NCBI RefSeq assembly: GCF_000802205.1
Contig: NZ_CP012850.1
Location: 2,356,001 to 2,420,000, forward strand
Source of the DNA: Candidatus Nitrosocosmicus oleophilus
Lineage (GTDB): Archaea > Thermoproteota > Nitrososphaeria > Nitrososphaerales > Nitrososphaeraceae
Length of the DNA: 64,000 nt
Direction: 5' to 3'
The stretch's first letter is position 1. Every line of letters starts with the position of its first letter. Below, in pieces: positions 21,096 through 28,598 of the stretch. The notes beneath the pieces are model-generated. The model worked only from the letters and a program-made list of their open reading frames with translations. It did not search any database and was not told the origin of the DNA. The translations under genes were made by a program, and so were the position numbers.

Positions 21096-21893
21096 CTAAG
21101 GTGCCATAGGTTCTATGTCCGGTGAAAAGACTTCTAGAACTGCACTTGGTAGCGTTTGTGCAAAAGCCTGAGCCATTACATCCTTTTCTACATAGTCAAC
21201 AATAGGAAGTTGCTCAATTGATTCGATGACTTTATCATTTGGTACCTTGATTGTCAATCCGTTTATGACATTTTCATAAACTTGAAGAACTTCAATGTTT
21301 TGTGTGTCAGATTTTTTAGATAACATTGAAAAAAAGTCAGATACAGTCGTATCATCGTCCTTAAAAACAACAATATATTGCCCGGGGATTTCTTCGTCTT
21401 CAGAACCCATTGTATTTGAAAGAAAAGTAGATGGGGCGTCAGAATAATCACCGACCAAAGGTAAAGTATCTTGGAGTTCAAAGGGAGTTTTGCTGATCTT
21501 ATCAGTGTTATCATCTTCGTTACTATAAACCTGTGTCATCATATTCGCCGGAAAAGGGAGGGAGGCGGATCGAGATGAGGTAGTATCTTCATTGGACTGC
21601 CCATCGCTATCCCTGTTATGTGTAGTGTCTAGGTCAGAATCCATATTATCCTTCTTATCGTCTTCGTCGGCATTAAATTTAGGAATACTATTTGTAATTG
21701 CACCAAAGTCAATAATAGACGAACTGTCCTTCTTAGGAGAACTATTGTCAAAATTAAAATTAAGAAAAGGAATATCAGGCAAGCCTATGCTAAATGCGTC
21801 GGCTCTTTGAATGACGCTTGTACTCAAAATACTCAAAAGTACCAATAAAGATAAAAAGTATAATTTAGCATGTTGACGGCCTTTGCTATTCAC
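21096..21893 (-). CDS. Exported stand-alone peptidase-inhibitor I9 protein
   Basis: The 265-residue protein has a signal peptide (hydrophobic about 12-33), then a long Asp/Ser/Asn-rich linker, and a C-terminal domain from about residue 168: 'PGQYIVVFKDDDTTVSDFF', 'VYENVINGLTIKVPNDKVI' and 'LPIVDYVEKDVMAQAFAQT'. This is the inhibitor I9 fold, normally the propeptide of subtilisin-type proteases, where the last strand occupies the active site. Here no protease domain follows: the protein stops about 25 residues later. It may act as a separate inhibitor or chaperone of a secreted subtilase encoded elsewhere. No subtilase is present in the window. Confidence 0.85.
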   Translation of the reverse strand: MNSKGRQHAKLYFLSLLVLLSILSTSVIQRADAFSIGLPDIPFLNFNFDNSSPKKDSSSIIDFGAITNSIPKFNADEDDKKDNMDSDLDTTHNRDSDGQSNEDTTSSRSASLPFPANMMTQVYSNEDDNTDKISKTPFELQDTLPLVGDYSDAPSTFLSNTMGSEDEEIPGQYIVVFKDDDTTVSDFFSMLSKKSDTQNIEVLQVYENVINGLTIKVPNDKVIESIEQLPIVDYVEKDVMAQAFAQTLPSAVLEVFSPDIEPMAP

Positions 21894-21991: not shown

Positions 21992-22099
21992 CTGGTATAG
22001 TTTTATGATAGATAAAATTACTAATGAGGAATTAGTTTATAGATAGTATATTAACTTCTGGTATAGTTTTATGATAGATAAAATTACTAATGAGGAATT
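21992..22099. repeat. Exact 42-bp direct repeat pair
   Basis: The 42 bases from ctggtatagttttatgatag to taatgaggaatt occur at 21,992-22,033 and again, without a change, at 22,058-22,099, with 24 unrelated bases between (period 66). They lie in the space upstream of the I9 inhibitor gene and downstream of a small exported-peptide gene. A duplicated regulatory site or a recent slippage event are both possible. Confidence 0.95.
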
Positions 22100-22269: not shown

Positions 22270-22554
22270 TTATTGTTGACCTAATGCGTTGTTGCCGTCA
22301 TTTAAGTTCAATGACAAGGCTACGTTGTTACATGATGCAGTTGTATCGTTACCAGAACCACATCTTGATGATTGGAGTGTTTCTGTATCTTGAGCGATCC
22401 CTTGTGCTGCTTCATTAGATTTTTTCTTGTGTTTATCCCCATGGTGATTATCCCCACCTGCAAAGGCCATGTTATCACCAAATGTTGCTACTGAGCCAAT
22501 CAAAGCTGCTGCTATAAAGATTGACAAGATTGACAATTGAATTTTTTTATTCAT
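22270..22554 (-). CDS. Small exported His/Cys-rich peptide, copy A
   Basis: The 94-residue product has a clean signal peptide (MNKKIQLSILSIF..., cleavage near 'AFAGG', residue 32), then a His/Lys-rich stretch 'GDNHHGDKHKKKSNE' and a C-terminal part 'CGSGNDTTASCNNVALSLNLN' with two Cys (65 and 75) likely to form a disulfide. A second gene at 27,034-27,318 is identical at the base level over most of its length and 80 bases upstream, except for a 51-base block covering residues about 48-64. A TATA-like tattatataa sits about 22 bases upstream of the ATG. No family with known function was recognised. Confidence 0.8.
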   Translation of the reverse strand: MNKKIQLSILSIFIAAALIGSVATFGDNMAFAGGDNHHGDKHKKKSNEAAQGIAQDTETLQSSRCGSGNDTTASCNNVALSLNLNDGNNALGQQ

Positions 22555-22635
22555 GCAAGATAAAGTGTCGTATTATATAATTGGATTGTTAAATCAGATT
22601 CTGAAATAATCTTACTAAATATGATTCTTGAATAA
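22276..22635 (-). repeat. Segmental duplicate (partner at 27,040-27,399) with a 51-bp unlike block
   Basis: By eye, 22,276-22,363 equals 27,040-27,127 and 22,415-22,635 equals 27,179-27,399, each shifted by exactly 4,764 bases. The 51 bases between (22,364-22,414 versus 27,128-27,178) are of equal length but largely different. The duplicate includes the gene's promoter and ends 80 bases upstream of the start codon. Confidence 0.93.
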
Positions 22636-22854
22636 TATTTCTCGATAAAATTCAACCACAAATTATTCGATGACTTATAGTTCTAGTATTGTATACGTAT
22701 CTCATAATTTCCACGTCAAAATTCATTGATAAGCATGTTACATATACAGCAAACGTCTCAAAAATAGTTCGATGAAAACCGTGAATGGTTAATTATCTAT
22801 ATTTTTGATTAAAAAACTAATCATTTCTATCTCGGAATCAACTATCATCATATA

Positions 22855-22863
22855 ACTTAAATA
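22855..22863 (+). promoter_or_regulatory. TATA box of the giant adhesin gene
   Basis: The sequence acttaaata is centred 27 bases before the TTG at 22886. Because a transcript starting there cannot include the earlier in-frame TTG at 22865, this element decides the start codon of the adhesin. Confidence 0.6.
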
Positions 22864-22885
22864 GTTGCTTTTTTTTGATTTAATA

Positions 22886-25800
22886 TTGAACAAGAATTTC
22901 ATACTTGTGATTATTTTAATATTATCGGCAACCGTGTACATCAATTATTCAGTCTGGATTGACATATACGCACAAAATAACGGATCTGGGGATAATGATG
23001 AAAAAGACCCAGTTATCACTGTCCCGGCCAATCCAATAATCGCGGAAGCTACAGGACCACTAGGCTCCCTTGTTTCCTATAATGTTTCAGCAACAAATGC
23101 TACTGGGACCCCTATAGACGTTAGCTGTACACCACCAAGTGACAGCATGTTTGCCTTGGGAACTTCAACGGTAGAGTGTATCGCTATAGATGAAGCAGGA
23201 AATGATGCAAAGGCTTCGTTTGCAGTATTAGTTCAAGATACAACTCCACCTACAACCGAACTAGGAATTGTTAAGACAGGTTGGATGGGCATATTAATTG
23301 ACAATGATTCTACAAATTCTGATGATATTGGATTTGCCTTTACAGGTTCCGATCTTGTAGGTGTCAAAGGCTTTGAATGTAAACTGGATGATGGGAATTG
23401 GCGTCCAAGTACAATAGATTATCAGGAAACTGATAAAGCTGGGTGTTATTACATGAACGTCGAAGAAGGCCCTCATTCGTTTCAGGTTAGGGCAGTAGAT
23501 ACATCAGACAACAAAGATCCAAATCCACAATCCTTTTCATGGACAATCATATCTCTTGAAGATGCAATAGTTAATCTTCGTGATTTTGTATCGACAATAG
23601 TTATGCCTCCTAATTTGGAAGAAGAATTAATAGATTCGCTAAACAATGCGATTGGTAATATTCAGGATGATGGCAGCTACGACCATCTAATTTGCGAATA
23701 CCTAGATTCATTTAGTTATAGTTTTGCAAAGGCTTCTGTACTAGATTTGTTTAATCAAGACGTCACAAATTATGTAGATAACTCATTCACATCAATCAGA
23801 GACAGAACAGGTTGTAATCCACCAGTAGTGAGTCTAGAAAATGAGATCACAGTGGACGAGGGGGTCAAAGGTGTGATTTTGGATGCTTCTGGTAGCTTTG
23901 ACTCAAAGGATGGGAAAAATTTAGACTACGAATGGAGTCAAATCGCAGGTACTACAGTAGATTTGTCAAATATTTACAAGTCAAAGGCCTCCTTTGATGC
24001 CCCAATTCTTGAAGGCACTTCAAACCAAGTAGTATTTTTCAAAGTACAAGTAACTGACAAGAATGATCTATCATCAGAAAAAACTATCAAAGTGGTAATT
24101 CGAAATTTGGTACCGGTCCATGTTCCACCAGTAGCCGATGATCAGCGTGTGTCAGCAAATACGGCTGATCCTACAGAGATAACTCTCACAGCTACAGATC
24201 CAGGTGGTAATCCTTTGACATATTCCATAGTTTCACAGCCACAGTCAGGCACCATCACAGACCTTAACGAAGACACAGGTAGTTTGGTCTATACATCCAA
24301 TGCCGGATTTACAGGACAGGATAGATTCACATTCAAGGCCAATGATGGAACCGTCGACAGCAATACAGCCACAGTAAGAGTAACAGTGAACGCAGTCAAT
24401 GTTCCACCAGTAGCCGATGATCAGCGTGTGTCAGCAAATACGGCTGATCCTACAGAGATAACTCTCACAGCTACAGATCCAGGTGGTAATCCTTTGACAT
24501 ATTCCATAGTTTCACAGCCACAGTCAGGCACCATCACAGACCTTAACGAAGACACAGGTAGTTTGGTCTATACATCCAATGCCGGATTTACAGGACAGGA
24601 TAGATTCACATTCAAGGCCAATGATGGAACCGTCGACAGCAATACAGCCACAGTAAGAGTAACAGTGAACGCAGTCAATGTTCCACCAGTAGCCGATGAT
24701 CAGCGTGTGTCAGCAAATACGGCTGATCCTACAGAGATAACTCTCACAGCTACAGATCCAGGTGGTAATCCTTTGACATATTCCATAGTTTCACAGCCAC
24801 AGTCAGGCACCATCACAGACCTTAACGAAGACACAGGTAGTTTGGTCTATACATCCAATGCCGGATTTACAGGACAGGATAGATTCACATTCAAGGCCAA
24901 TGATGGAACCGTCGACAGCAATACAGCCACAGTAAGAGTAACAGTGAACGCAGTCAATGTTCCACCAGTAGCCGATGATCAGCGTGTGTCAGCAAATACG
25001 GCTGATCCTACAGAGATAACTCTCACAGCTACAGATCCAGGTGGTAATCCTTTGACATATTCCATAGTTTCACAGCCACAGTCAGGCACCATCACAGACC
25101 TTAACGAAGACACAGGTAGTTTGGTCTATACATCCAATGCCGGATTTACAGGACAGGATAGATTCACATTCAAGGCCAATGATGGAACCGTCGACAGCAA
25201 TACAGCCACAGTAAGAGTAACAGTGAACGCAGTCAATGTTCCACCAGTAGCCGATGATCAGCGTGTGTCAGCAAATACGGCTGATCCTACAGAGATAACT
25301 CTCACAGCTACAGATCCAGGTGGTAATCCTTTGACATATTCCATAGTTTCACAGCCACAGTCAGGCACCATCACAGACCTTAACGAAGACACAGGTAGTT
25401 TGGTCTATACATCCAATGCCGGATTTACAGGACAGGATAGATTCACATTCAAGGCCAATGATGGAACCGTCGACAGCAATACAGCCACAGTAAGAGTAAC
25501 AGTGAACGCAGTCAATGTTCCACCAGTAGCCGATGATCAGCGTGTGTCAGCAAATACGGCTGATCCTACAGAGATAACTCTCACAGCTACAGATCCAGGT
25601 GGTAATCCTTTGACATATTCCATAGTTTCACAGCCACAGTCAGGCACCATCACAGACCTTAACGAAGACACAGGTAGTTTGGTCTATACATCCAATGCCG
25701 GATTTACAGGACAGGATAGATTCACATTCAAGGCCAATGATGGAACCGTCGACAGCAATACAGCCACAGTAAGAGTAACAGTGAACGCAGTCAATGTTCC

Positions 25801-26587
25801 ACCAGTAGCCGATGATCAGCGTGTGTCAGCAAATACGGCTGATCCTACAGAGATAACTCTCACAGCTACAGATCCAGGTGGTAATCCTTTGACATATTCC
25901 ATAGTTTCACAGCCACAGTCAGGCACCATCACAGACCTTAACGAAGACACAGGTAGTTTGGTCTATACATCCAATGCCGGATTTACAGGACAGGATAGAT
26001 TCACATTCAAGGCCAATGATGGAACCGTCGACAGCAATACAGCCACAGTAAGAGTAACAGTGAACGCAGTCAATGTTCCACCAGTAGCCGATGATCAGCG
26101 TGTGTCAGCAAATACGGCTGATCCTACAGAGATAACTCTCACAGCTACAGATCCAGGTGGTAATCCTTTGACATATTCCATAGTTTCACAGCCACAGTCA
26201 GGCACCATCACAGACCTTAACGAAGACACAGGTAGTTTGGTCTATACATCCAATGCCGGATTTACAGGACAGGATAGATTCACATTCAAGGCCAATGATG
26301 GAACCGTCGACAGCAATACAGCCACAGTAAGAGTAACAGTGAATGAAGTTAGTACTCAGCCTGTGCCTAAGCCAGAATCTGAACCAGAGGTAGACAACTC
26401 ATCTGAGGATACCACACCTCCAACATCAACTAAAGATACCACACCTCCAACATCAACTAAAGACAGTAAACCTTCAACTTCCAAATCAACCGGTCTTAAC
26501 AGTACAAGCCTCAGCAGTGGCGGGGGCCTCTTTTCTGATGGATTTCCAGGGTTTACAGGTAATATGAAGAATCTATTTGGCAATTAA
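22886..26587 (+). CDS. Giant exported adhesin-like protein with eight identical cadherin-like repeats
   Basis: The TTG at 22886 gives MNKNFILVIILILSATVYIN, a signal peptide, and fits the TATA box 27 bases upstream; 1,233 residues result. Domains in order: a HYR-type beta domain (about 42-120), a Cys-containing beta domain (about 125-222), a helical linker, a PKD/REJ-like domain (about 312-405), eight copies of a 93-residue Ig/cadherin-like module (about 413-1153; motifs 'ADDQRVSANTADPTEITL' and 'TDPGGNPLTYSI'), and a Pro/Thr/Ser-rich tail with a duplicated 'DTTPPTSTK'. The module matches the tandem 95-type/Cadherin_4 class common in calcium-dependent surface adhesins. No membrane helix or sortase-like signal is seen at the C-terminus, so attachment is unclear. 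A cell-cell or cell-surface adhesion role is inferred. Confidence 0.9.
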   Translation: MNKNFILVIILILSATVYINYSVWIDIYAQNNGSGDNDEKDPVITVPANPIIAEATGPLGSLVSYNVSATNATGTPIDVSCTPPSDSMFALGTSTVECIAIDEAGNDAKASFAVLVQDTTPPTTELGIVKTGWMGILIDNDSTNSDDIGFAFTGSDLVGVKGFECKLDDGNWRPSTIDYQETDKAGCYYMNVEEGPHSFQVRAVDTSDNKDPNPQSFSWTIISLEDAIVNLRDFVSTIVMPPNLEEELIDSLNNAIGNIQDDGSYDHLICEYLDSFSYSFAKASVLDLFNQDVTNYVDNSFTSIRDRTGCNPPVVSLENEITVDEGVKGVILDASGSFDSKDGKNLDYEWSQIAGTTVDLSNIYKSKASFDAPILEGTSNQVVFFKVQVTDKNDLSSEKTIKVVIRNLVPVHVPPVADDQRVSANTADPTEITLTATDPGGNPLTYSIVSQPQSGTITDLNEDTGSLVYTSNAGFTGQDRFTFKANDGTVDSNTATVRVTVNAVNVPPVADDQRVSANTADPTEITLTATDPGGNPLTYSIVSQPQSGTITDLNEDTGSLVYTSNAGFTGQDRFTFKANDGTVDSNTATVRVTVNAVNVPPVADDQRVSANTADPTEITLTATDPGGNPLTYSIVSQPQSGTITDLNEDTGSLVYTSNAGFTGQDRFTFKANDGTVDSNTATVRVTVNAVNVPPVADDQRVSANTADPTEITLTATDPGGNPLTYSIVSQPQSGTITDLNEDTGSLVYTSNAGFTGQDRFTFKANDGTVDSNTATVRVTVNAVNVPPVADDQRVSANTADPTEITLTATDPGGNPLTYSIVSQPQSGTITDLNEDTGSLVYTSNAGFTGQDRFTFKANDGTVDSNTATVRVTVNAVNVPPVADDQRVSANTADPTEITLTATDPGGNPLTYSIVSQPQSGTITDLNEDTGSLVYTSNAGFTGQDRFTFKANDGTVDSNTATVRVTVNAVNVPPVADDQRVSANTADPTEITLTATDPGGNPLTYSIVSQPQSGTITDLNEDTGSLVYTSNAGFTGQDRFTFKANDGTVDSNTATVRVTVNAVNVPPVADDQRVSANTADPTEITLTATDPGGNPLTYSIVSQPQSGTITDLNEDTGSLVYTSNAGFTGQDRFTFKANDGTVDSNTATVRVTVNEVSTQPVPKPESEPEVDNSSEDTTPPTSTKDTTPPTSTKDSKPSTSKSTGLNSTSLSSGGGLFSDGFPGFTGNMKNLFGN
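24122..26343 (+). repeat. Eight exact 279-bp tandem repeats in frame
   Basis: Units start at 24122, 24401, 24680, 24959, 25238, 25517, 25796 and 26075. All encode the same 93 residues and look base-for-base identical, including silent positions, until the last unit diverges at 26,344. The array is within a surface protein gene; unit number is likely to vary between strains or be collapsed in short-read assemblies. Confidence 0.97.
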
Positions 26588-27033
26588 GCAAAGGGGAATA
26601 CATACATTATTGATTGATTACCTAACACTGATCTAAAAGCGCTCTTATTTTTTTAGATTTTAAACATTTACATTAAAATTATTTTTCTAAAATTCGATTG
26701 TCCCAGAATAAAAAATTTAGTTCATAATCATATGTCAACTTTGAAAAAGAGTCATTTTTGATCTTGTCGATTTAAATATGATAAATTTGACCCATCTGAA
26801 CTTAGAGGATATCAAAAGAGAACTCAAGTTTGGTTAATATTTTGATCTGATAAATAATTTATTACCATTCAAAAACTGAGACAATTAGATCATAAAAAAA
26901 CCTGATTAGTCATTTAAGATCTAGTAACAGTATTTCACGACATCATAAACCAAATATGGTAATATACAAAATGCATAGAACTTGAGAATAATTTTTTGAT
27001 ATAAAATATCTGAGATAAAAAAGAATAGGTCCT
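26588..27033. other. Intergenic; probable U-rich terminator after the adhesin
   Basis: No gene is seen in about 445 bases. The run cttatttttttag at 26,644-26,656, 60 bases past the adhesin stop, would give the U-rich RNA 3' end typical of archaeal termination; this is weak evidence. The rest is AT-rich without repeats. Confidence 0.4.
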
Positions 27034-27318
27034 TTACTCTTGACCTAATGCGTTGTTGCCGTCATTTAAGTTCAATGACAAGGCTACGTTGTTACATGAT
27101 GCAGTTGTATCGTTACCAGAACCACATGATGAATCTTGACCAGTTCCTGAAAATTGTTCTAGATCTTGGAGTGCTTCGTTAGATTTTTTCTTGTGTTTAT
27201 CCCCATGGTGATTATCCCCACCTGCAAAGGCCATGTTATCACCAAATGTTGCTACTGAGCCAATCAAAGCTGCTGCTATAAAGATTGACAAGATTGACAA
27301 TTGAATTTTTTTATTCAT
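27034..27318 (-). CDS. Small exported His/Cys-rich peptide, copy B
   Basis: The 94-residue product shares its signal peptide, His/Lys-rich stretch and Cys-containing C-terminus with the gene at 22,270-22,554, and its upstream 80 bases are the same. Residues about 48-64 differ ('LQDLEQFSGTGQDSS' here against 'AQGIAQDTETLQSSR'), as does the final residue (Glu rather than Gln). The differing block is acidic-polar in both copies and has equal length. It closes the island whose centre is the giant adhesin. Function unknown. Confidence 0.8.
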   Translation of the reverse strand: MNKKIQLSILSIFIAAALIGSVATFGDNMAFAGGDNHHGDKHKKKSNEALQDLEQFSGTGQDSSCGSGNDTTASCNNVALSLNLNDGNNALGQE

Positions 27319-27399
27319 GCAAGATAAAGTGTCGTATTATATAATTGGATTGTTAAATCAGATTCTGAAATAATCTTACTAAATATGATTCTTGAATAA
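27040..27399 (-). repeat. Segmental duplicate (partner at 22,276-22,635)
   Basis: This is the second copy of the duplicated gene and promoter; see the partner for the matching blocks. Identity stops on one side at the last two codons of the gene and on the other 80 bases upstream of its start. Confidence 0.93.
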
Positions 27400-27851: not shown

Positions 27852-28598
27852 CTAATTATTTGCTCTCAGTGTCCCTGTGCCATTTGGATATAGGTTTACA
27901 CTAGTTGATGCATCCGAAAATATTACACCACCAATCTCAATATTTTCTACCAAATTAGGACTGTTGATAATTGTTTTAGAGCCGTCGGGGTTCTGCGTTG
28001 TATTTACCGGATTTGAGAACACTTTCATGTACACGGGCAGAGCACTACCAGTGGAATTGTCTAATTTAATTGTAGCTCTCATTGAAATAAGAATATCAGT
28101 AATAGTAATCTCATCGCTAGTATCATTTAAAAATTCATATGTTAGAGGAACGTTATTTATCAAAACCTTCGGTTTGCCTACTATTAGATAATCAGTGTCA
28201 AGTCCCACCGGTTTAGATGAAAAATTAGCAACAAGAGTCACATTTTCTGTCCCAGTTAACTGAGTATCATTTACTATAGAACCAGCGGTGCCTGTTACAT
28301 TTGTCAGGTTATCCATGCTAGCAAATTGTTCGCTCAGCGGGGTATTATTGATCAATCCCAATGTAGAATTAGAGAGATTAAGGTTAAGGTCAAGGGTTGA
28401 TGCATTTGTAAGGATAGAGGAAGACAAAAGAGAAGAGTTTGAAGAGTTTGTTCCAGACAAATTAGGGGATGTACTTTCATCAGTAGAGGCCACCGTGGAA
28501 AATGCTGGATTTAACGATATAAGCATCAAAACTATTGAAAGTGTCAAGCAGGAAATTATGCTATATTTTATTCCAGCCAATTTACATAAAAACTGCAT
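27852..28598 (-). CDS. Exported Asn/Ser/Thr-rich hypothetical protein
   Basis: The 248-residue protein has a signal peptide (hydrophobic about 12-34) followed by a Ser/Asn/Leu-rich region with many N-x-S/T sites, and a beta-rich C-terminal half ('GLDTDYLIVGKPKVLINNVPL', 'ITITDILISMRATIKLDNSTGSALPVYMKVF'). The C-terminal part has the look of a small immunoglobulin-like surface domain, but no family was recognised. It sits at the edge of the surface-protein island. Confidence 0.7.
   Translation of the reverse strand: MQFLCKLAGIKYSIISCLTLSIVLMLISLNPAFSTVASTDESTSPNLSGTNSSNSSLLSSSILTNASTLDLNLNLSNSTLGLINNTPLSEQFASMDNLTNVTGTAGSIVNDTQLTGTENVTLVANFSSKPVGLDTDYLIVGKPKVLINNVPLTYEFLNDTSDEITITDILISMRATIKLDNSTGSALPVYMKVFSNPVNTTQNPDGSKTIINSPNLVENIEIGGVIFSDASTSVNLYPNGTGTLRANN

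Follow-up and report, generated by a model that had tools for sequence, protein, structure and literature searches.

The homogenisation of one part of a paralogous gene pair beside another part that stays distinct is already known from the mtrA pair, RF1/RF2 and a wider survey, the first two of which involve whole domains. Specifically, in mtrA-1/mtrA-2 of methanogens, long-lasting conversion homogenises the shared domain and the other part remains distinct (PMC4632066), in the bacterial release factors RF1 and RF2 conversion is confined to the region of common function with the specificity regions kept apart (PMC4530459), and the long-lasting concerted evolution recorded in prokaryotes concerns mostly key members of important pathways (PMC6053082). 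The two peptide genes described here, termed A and B, are likewise an archaeal paralog pair in which a converted part adjoins a distinct one, but the distinct part of mtrA is a whole added terminal transmembrane domain, whereas in A/B it comprises 17 internal codons with homogenised sequence on both sides. As in RF1/RF2, conversion seems to have run in opposite directions in different lineages; unlike those two isolated and ancient cases, which concern a large domain, it is recurrent in A/B, with short tracts and in nearly every species. A and B share with the surveyed cases the greater closeness of paralogs within than between species, but their products are secreted repeat peptides whose family is nearly confined to the genus. 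On the side of the protein, the secreted Q/N-rich repeats, the regular conserved spacing, the presence of two paralogs and the variable repeat number recall the curli proteins CsgA/CsgB (PMC3521004), from which A/B differ in a unit of about 50 aa that carries a Cys pair. Membership of the curli family was considered and rejected: no Curlin_rpt (PF07012) match occurs in the genome at E<=1, with the control found in E. coli, and A, B and a relative with eight units contain the minimal motif QxGxxN 0 times.

In the window, the stretch of 64,000 nucleotides analysed here from the chromosome of the soil ammonia-oxidizing archaeon Candidatus Nitrosocosmicus oleophilus, gene A (22270-22554) and gene B (27034-27318) are minus-strand open reading frames, each coding for a 94-aa exported single-unit Q/N-repeat peptide, and they flank an adhesin gene at 22865-26587, as an earlier note on this DNA had reported. 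Both peptides consist of a Sec-type signal sequence that ends at about residue 32, as judged by eye, a His/Lys/Asp linker, a block that differs between the two genes, and a part with two Cys, which in gene A delimit a Cys65-Cys75 loop (22330-22362, minus strand) with a predicted disulfide. Exact alignment of the two regions bears out the 88-bp and 221-bp identical tracts of that note, both at an offset of 4764 bp. On the minus strand, the 221-bp tract (22415-22635 at gene A, 27179-27399 at gene B) covers the promoter, the signal peptide and the His/Lys linker, with identity that reaches 81 bp upstream of the ATG, so that the promoters are indeed included, and the 88-bp tract (22276-22363 and 27040-27127) covers the Cys loop and strand 2. 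The 51 bp that separate the tracts, corresponding to block A (22364-22414, minus strand, from the third base of codon 47 to the second base of codon 64) and block B (27128-27178, minus strand), are the apparently unconverted segments coding for strand 1 and contain all 23 mismatches between A and B; the chance that 23 random mismatches over 360 bp would all land in the block is 1.7e-22. To this largely different block, already recognised in the earlier note, the alignment adds the last codon, CAA (Gln) in A and GAG (Glu) in B, a difference that is found again in other species. Downstream of gene A, at 22005-22099, about three copies of a 33-bp sequence form an imperfect tandem repeat.

The identical promoter regions contain a conserved upstream element, AGTAAGATTATTTCAGAATCTGATT, at 22592-22616 for gene A and at 27356-27380 for gene B (both minus strand), detected by genome search and alignment. 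In the genome, a single contig of 3,430,706 bp from the genus Nitrosocosmicus, the 25-bp element AGTAAGATTATTTCAGAATCNGATT has three sites at <=3 mismatches, two of them upstream of A and B and the other upstream of a third relative at a distance of 33 kb, and the reversed control has none. Gene A also carries a TATA-like box, AATTATATAATA (22571-22582, minus strand), about 17-28 bp 5' of the ATG, read from the sequence and conserved in the alignment; its transcript is predicted to be leaderless. The 25-bp element and the TATA-like box are conserved upstream of most members of the A/B subfamily in the genus. Two other subfamilies (L019-L027 and L006-L016) show, by eye, long conserved upstream regions of their own, which suggests separate regulation of these subfamilies.

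The A/B pair is present in seven Nitrosocosmicus genomes. Where the loci are contiguous enough, namely in the window and in the relatives G001, G002, G003, G004 and G005, the order is the ortholog of 27852-28598, peptide B, the adhesin, peptide A and the ortholog of 21096-21893, in some cases with inserted genes. In every one of these loci the block type matches the position: the gene A position and block type agree in the five relatives, and a type B block occupies the orthologous position of gene B in the same number. Because block type agrees with syntenic position, A and B can be told apart without recourse to the block, and because both loci lie next to orthologous genes in six species, the present one among them, the duplication is older than the species. 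Such age bears on the possibility that A and B arose by a recent duplication, after which positive selection rapidly changed the block, with no gene conversion at all. The window taken alone, with identical flanks around a divergent block, has precisely this appearance, but besides the synteny the block split is equally deep within and between species and its dN/dS stays below 1; refuted by synteny and trees, this history is scarcely credible.

Regarding the neighbours of the pair, the protein between A and B (22865-26587, plus strand) is a 1240-aa adhesin-like protein with HYR, PKD and 8 Big_9/cadherin-like repeats in a domain search, and all contiguous genomes looked at have it between A and B. 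In the window it includes eight 279-bp repeats (24116-26343) with <=3 differences between any pair. In relatives the adhesin open reading frame is about 580 to 990 aa long, and because of this variation in length the number of repeats seems to change while the repeats stay alike. On the other side of gene A, the only match of the open reading frame at 21096-21893 is Inhibitor_I9, a protease propeptide; its orthologs measure 565-570 aa in G003 and G004 and about 260-286 aa in G000, G002 and G005, as if the remainder had been lost in one clade.

The types themselves can be written as QGIGQDTETLQS..C for A and Q.L.Q.SGTGQDS.C for B, and they are fixed by position; the left part of block B looks A-like in G003, G004 and G014, and residues 58 and 62 are the only positions fully disjoint between the types over the seven species. 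The last codon is type-specific in six of the seven species, with Gln in both G003 copies. The earlier note had proposed a cassette-like diversification, in which donor copies would replace the block and so vary a recognition segment. The sharp limits of the 51 bp, set between identical flanks, speak for such a process, but at the species level it is contradicted, since just two types exist. The comparison of related genomes thus returns the very outcome, the same two blocks fixed at the same positions, that the note had named as counting against its idea. Moreover, the search for donors finds no copies of block A or B in the genome beyond the A and B genes themselves, the open reading frame listing around the pair shows no template array, and WA-bin7, a near relative with about 86% DNA identity to the window around gene A, has a nearly unchanged A block in a gene copy whose small indels are maybe assembly errors. 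Diversification by cassettes is accordingly very improbable, so the pair seems to embody a lasting division of labour, or the remnant of one, and not a cassette undergoing shuffling. Of the two further suggestions of the note, gene conversion stands as a process but with its direction reversed, since distances, trees and silent sites indicate that everything except the block is homogenised, and the variable recognition segment gives way to a weaker form, a single predicted strand whose outward face differs by type.

Comparison of one genome per species makes this direction apparent. The N part (codons 1-46) has a mean nucleotide distance of 0.06 within genomes vs 0.25 between species, and the C part of 0.04 vs 0.10. 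Conversely, the block has a distance of 0.38 within genomes, and between species of 0.24 if the types match and 0.40 if they do not. In line with these values, among 64 relabelings the labelling of sequences as A or B comes 1st for the block, and it carries no signal in the flanks. Silent sites behave in the same way: for the N part, dS amounts to 0.08 within genomes (G005 left out) vs 1.3 between species, and the block gives about 0.9 in either comparison. Trees in which A forms one clade are rejected for the N part (AU p 1e-53) and the C part (AU p 1e-4), and the tree of the block, which rests on 54 nt only, recovers the A|B split with moderate support (93/83, not starred). The between-species dS of the C part (22276-22363 and orthologs) is low, about 0.33 vs 1.3 in the N part.

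These data also address an alternative without conversion, namely that the flanks of the two genes resemble each other through purifying selection alone. Conservation of the promoter element and of the C part among species is in keeping with it, but purifying selection does not account for silent sites homogenised within genomes and diverged between them, nor for linker indels that are species-specific and common to both copies of a species; the reading is refuted and practically untenable. Concerted evolution by recurrent two-way gene conversion between A and B, with one protected segment, very probably explains the pattern, and the three features by which such evolution is recognised are all found: paralogs are closer within a genome than orthologs are across genomes, silent sites included; the paralogs are older than the species, by synteny in G001-G005; and the tree of the converted part contradicts that of the unconverted part. 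The linker also hints at the direction of individual events. The long His/Asp linker is found in both G002 copies and the short form in both G000 copies, while in G005 gene A carries the long form and gene B the short form, with an unconverted N part and a homogenised C part. Because of this distribution of linker forms, and because G005 is nearer G000 than G002 is, judging from the identities of neighbouring proteins, the simplest history would be a B to A conversion towards G000 and an A to B conversion in G002.

The analysis partly establishes that the block is strand 1 of a Q/N-rich repeat of about 50 residues, whose family is undescribed and nearly restricted to the genus. The genome holds at least 75 unit matches, in proteins that range from 84-aa single-unit peptides to open reading frames with about ten units, with A and B at the single-unit end. 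The family occurs in 15 of the 15 Nitrosocosmicus genomes searched, in 1 of 55 other genomes of the taxonomic family and, with a two-unit query, in 0 of 286 other genomes of a class-wide sample. Sequence searches of Pfam, NCBIfam and PDB give no convincing match, the PHROGs search gives weak hits only, and the open-licence Nitrosocosmicus literature, at the level of titles and abstracts and from the angles of amyloid, curli and secreted proteome, holds no description of the family. Two-unit members (L075-L080 and others) are near-identical within genomes, as in G000, where four share 97-100% protein identity, and G003 has three equal-scoring two-unit members; because of this near-identity, homogenisation or recent duplication would extend beyond the A/B pair. 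In L030, a 344-aa open reading frame, a family unit stands ahead of a NosD/right-handed beta-helix domain, a natural repeat-solenoid fusion.

Within the repeat, residues 47-64 of A and B align to the pattern N-x-A-x-Q-x-I-x-Q-x-Q-x-S-x-Q of the multi-unit proteins, in which every second residue is conserved; head-to-tail repeats with alternating conserved residues are what characterises beta-solenoid and functional-amyloid-like proteins. Among single-unit members of the family, mean entropy is 0.84 bits for the odd residues (47, 49 ... 63) and 2.46 bits for the even ones. From this conservation, the face of the odd residues is predicted to point inward. The two Cys are both present or both absent in 117 of 121 family units, which are related and hence not independent, and this co-occurrence fits the predicted disulfide. 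AlphaFold (AF2) on four units gives each unit a 20-residue strand where the block lies (pLDDT 66, pTM 0.55), at moderate confidence and with disagreement among the five models (33-66), and the repeat array is thus modelled, with the same moderate confidence, as beta-solenoid-like; the single peptide gives no fold (pLDDT 48.7). Foldseek with the four-unit model returns no reliable match, although functional amyloids come out on top with TM-scores near 0.1, headed by FapC, the functional amyloid of Pseudomonas (9u4u: E 2.7e-3, probability 0.06, TM-score 0.09). FapC has no sequence match to the A/B family, and the likeness serves as a lead only, not as evidence of homology.

The differences between A and B follow the same alternation. 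The two types differ at 11 of 63 odd (inward) cells, mostly by I/L and T/S exchanges, and at 49 of 63 even (outward) cells, with a column-permutation p of 8e-4, to be preferred since the cells depend on one another. Even among copies of one type, the outward face varies from species to species, in 51.6% of comparisons, so part of the A/B outward difference may reflect loose constraint rather than a selected difference. Two explanations of the persistence of the block have therefore to be weighed. According to the first, which we moderately favour, selection keeps the block distinct, and the conservation of residues 58, 62 and 94 by type speaks for it. According to the second, a heterology barrier, the block diverged once, strand exchange stops at its mismatches and conversion tracts end on either side, leaving two drifting versions of one function with no selection for their difference. 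In agreement with a barrier, the two flank tracts behave independently, as in G005 with its C part homogenised and its N part not, and the outward residues drift; furthermore, dN/dS is higher in the block (0.4-0.5) than in the flanks (0.12-0.20), and it is because of this ratio and of the drift of the outward face within types that the looser reading has to be entertained. Against it, the inward residues are kept although their codons have changed silently, residues 58 and 62 follow the type in each of the seven species, and the last codon keeps its type in 6 of 7 species though adjoining an otherwise homogenised tract; a barrier alone is thus rather unlikely.

Selection on the block, together with conversion around it, would lead to the following mechanism. 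An old paralog pair flanks the adhesin, and conversion, running both ways and in opposite directions in different species, keeps the promoter, signal/linker and Cys/C-terminal parts near-identical within each species, while the 17 codons and the last codon stay as two ancient types tied to position, with differences that would fall on the strand face opposite the conserved inward ladder. The peptides are presumably secreted, with their two Cys disulfide-bonded, and on cells that lack an S-layer their units may pile up on one another and on those of multi-unit relatives to give matrix fibres of a beta-solenoid or amyloid-like kind. In that case a single promoter response and a single stacking core would be common to A and B, and their outer surfaces would differ, as might serve, for instance, an ordered co-assembly or the binding of two distinct partners; conversion of the block would erase this difference and be removed by selection. 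That A and B represent, in two surface types, one secreted matrix subunit able to stack on itself is a tentative proposal, possible though short of probable. It is attractive because the adhesin is a constant companion of the pair and the genus lacks an S-layer and known adhesion proteins, with its attachment to surfaces reported as unexplained (PMC12448741). The absence of adhesion proteins stated there appears to refer to homologs of those of other genera, and the cadherin-like adhesin between A and B is a different candidate for adhesion. If the inference of stacking holds, the A/B protein works like curli or Fap subunits.

The locus is a natural example, at an unusually fine grain, of gene conversion acting alongside a protected difference, with homogenised tracts as short as 88 bp and an adjoining stretch of 17 codons that keeps two types over the genus, and the alternation pattern provides a structural reason for where the conversion boundary runs. 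For the organism, the large secreted repeat family is candidate matrix material for Nitrosocosmicus, with gene sets and a testable pair now named. As a more doubtful extension, the matrix of Nitrosocosmicus might be built from its own functional-amyloid-like Q/N-ladder proteins, with A and B as co-assembling single-unit subunits whose core and promoter would be interchangeable by conversion and whose outward strand face, selectively held as two types, would set the order of assembly or the choice of partner.
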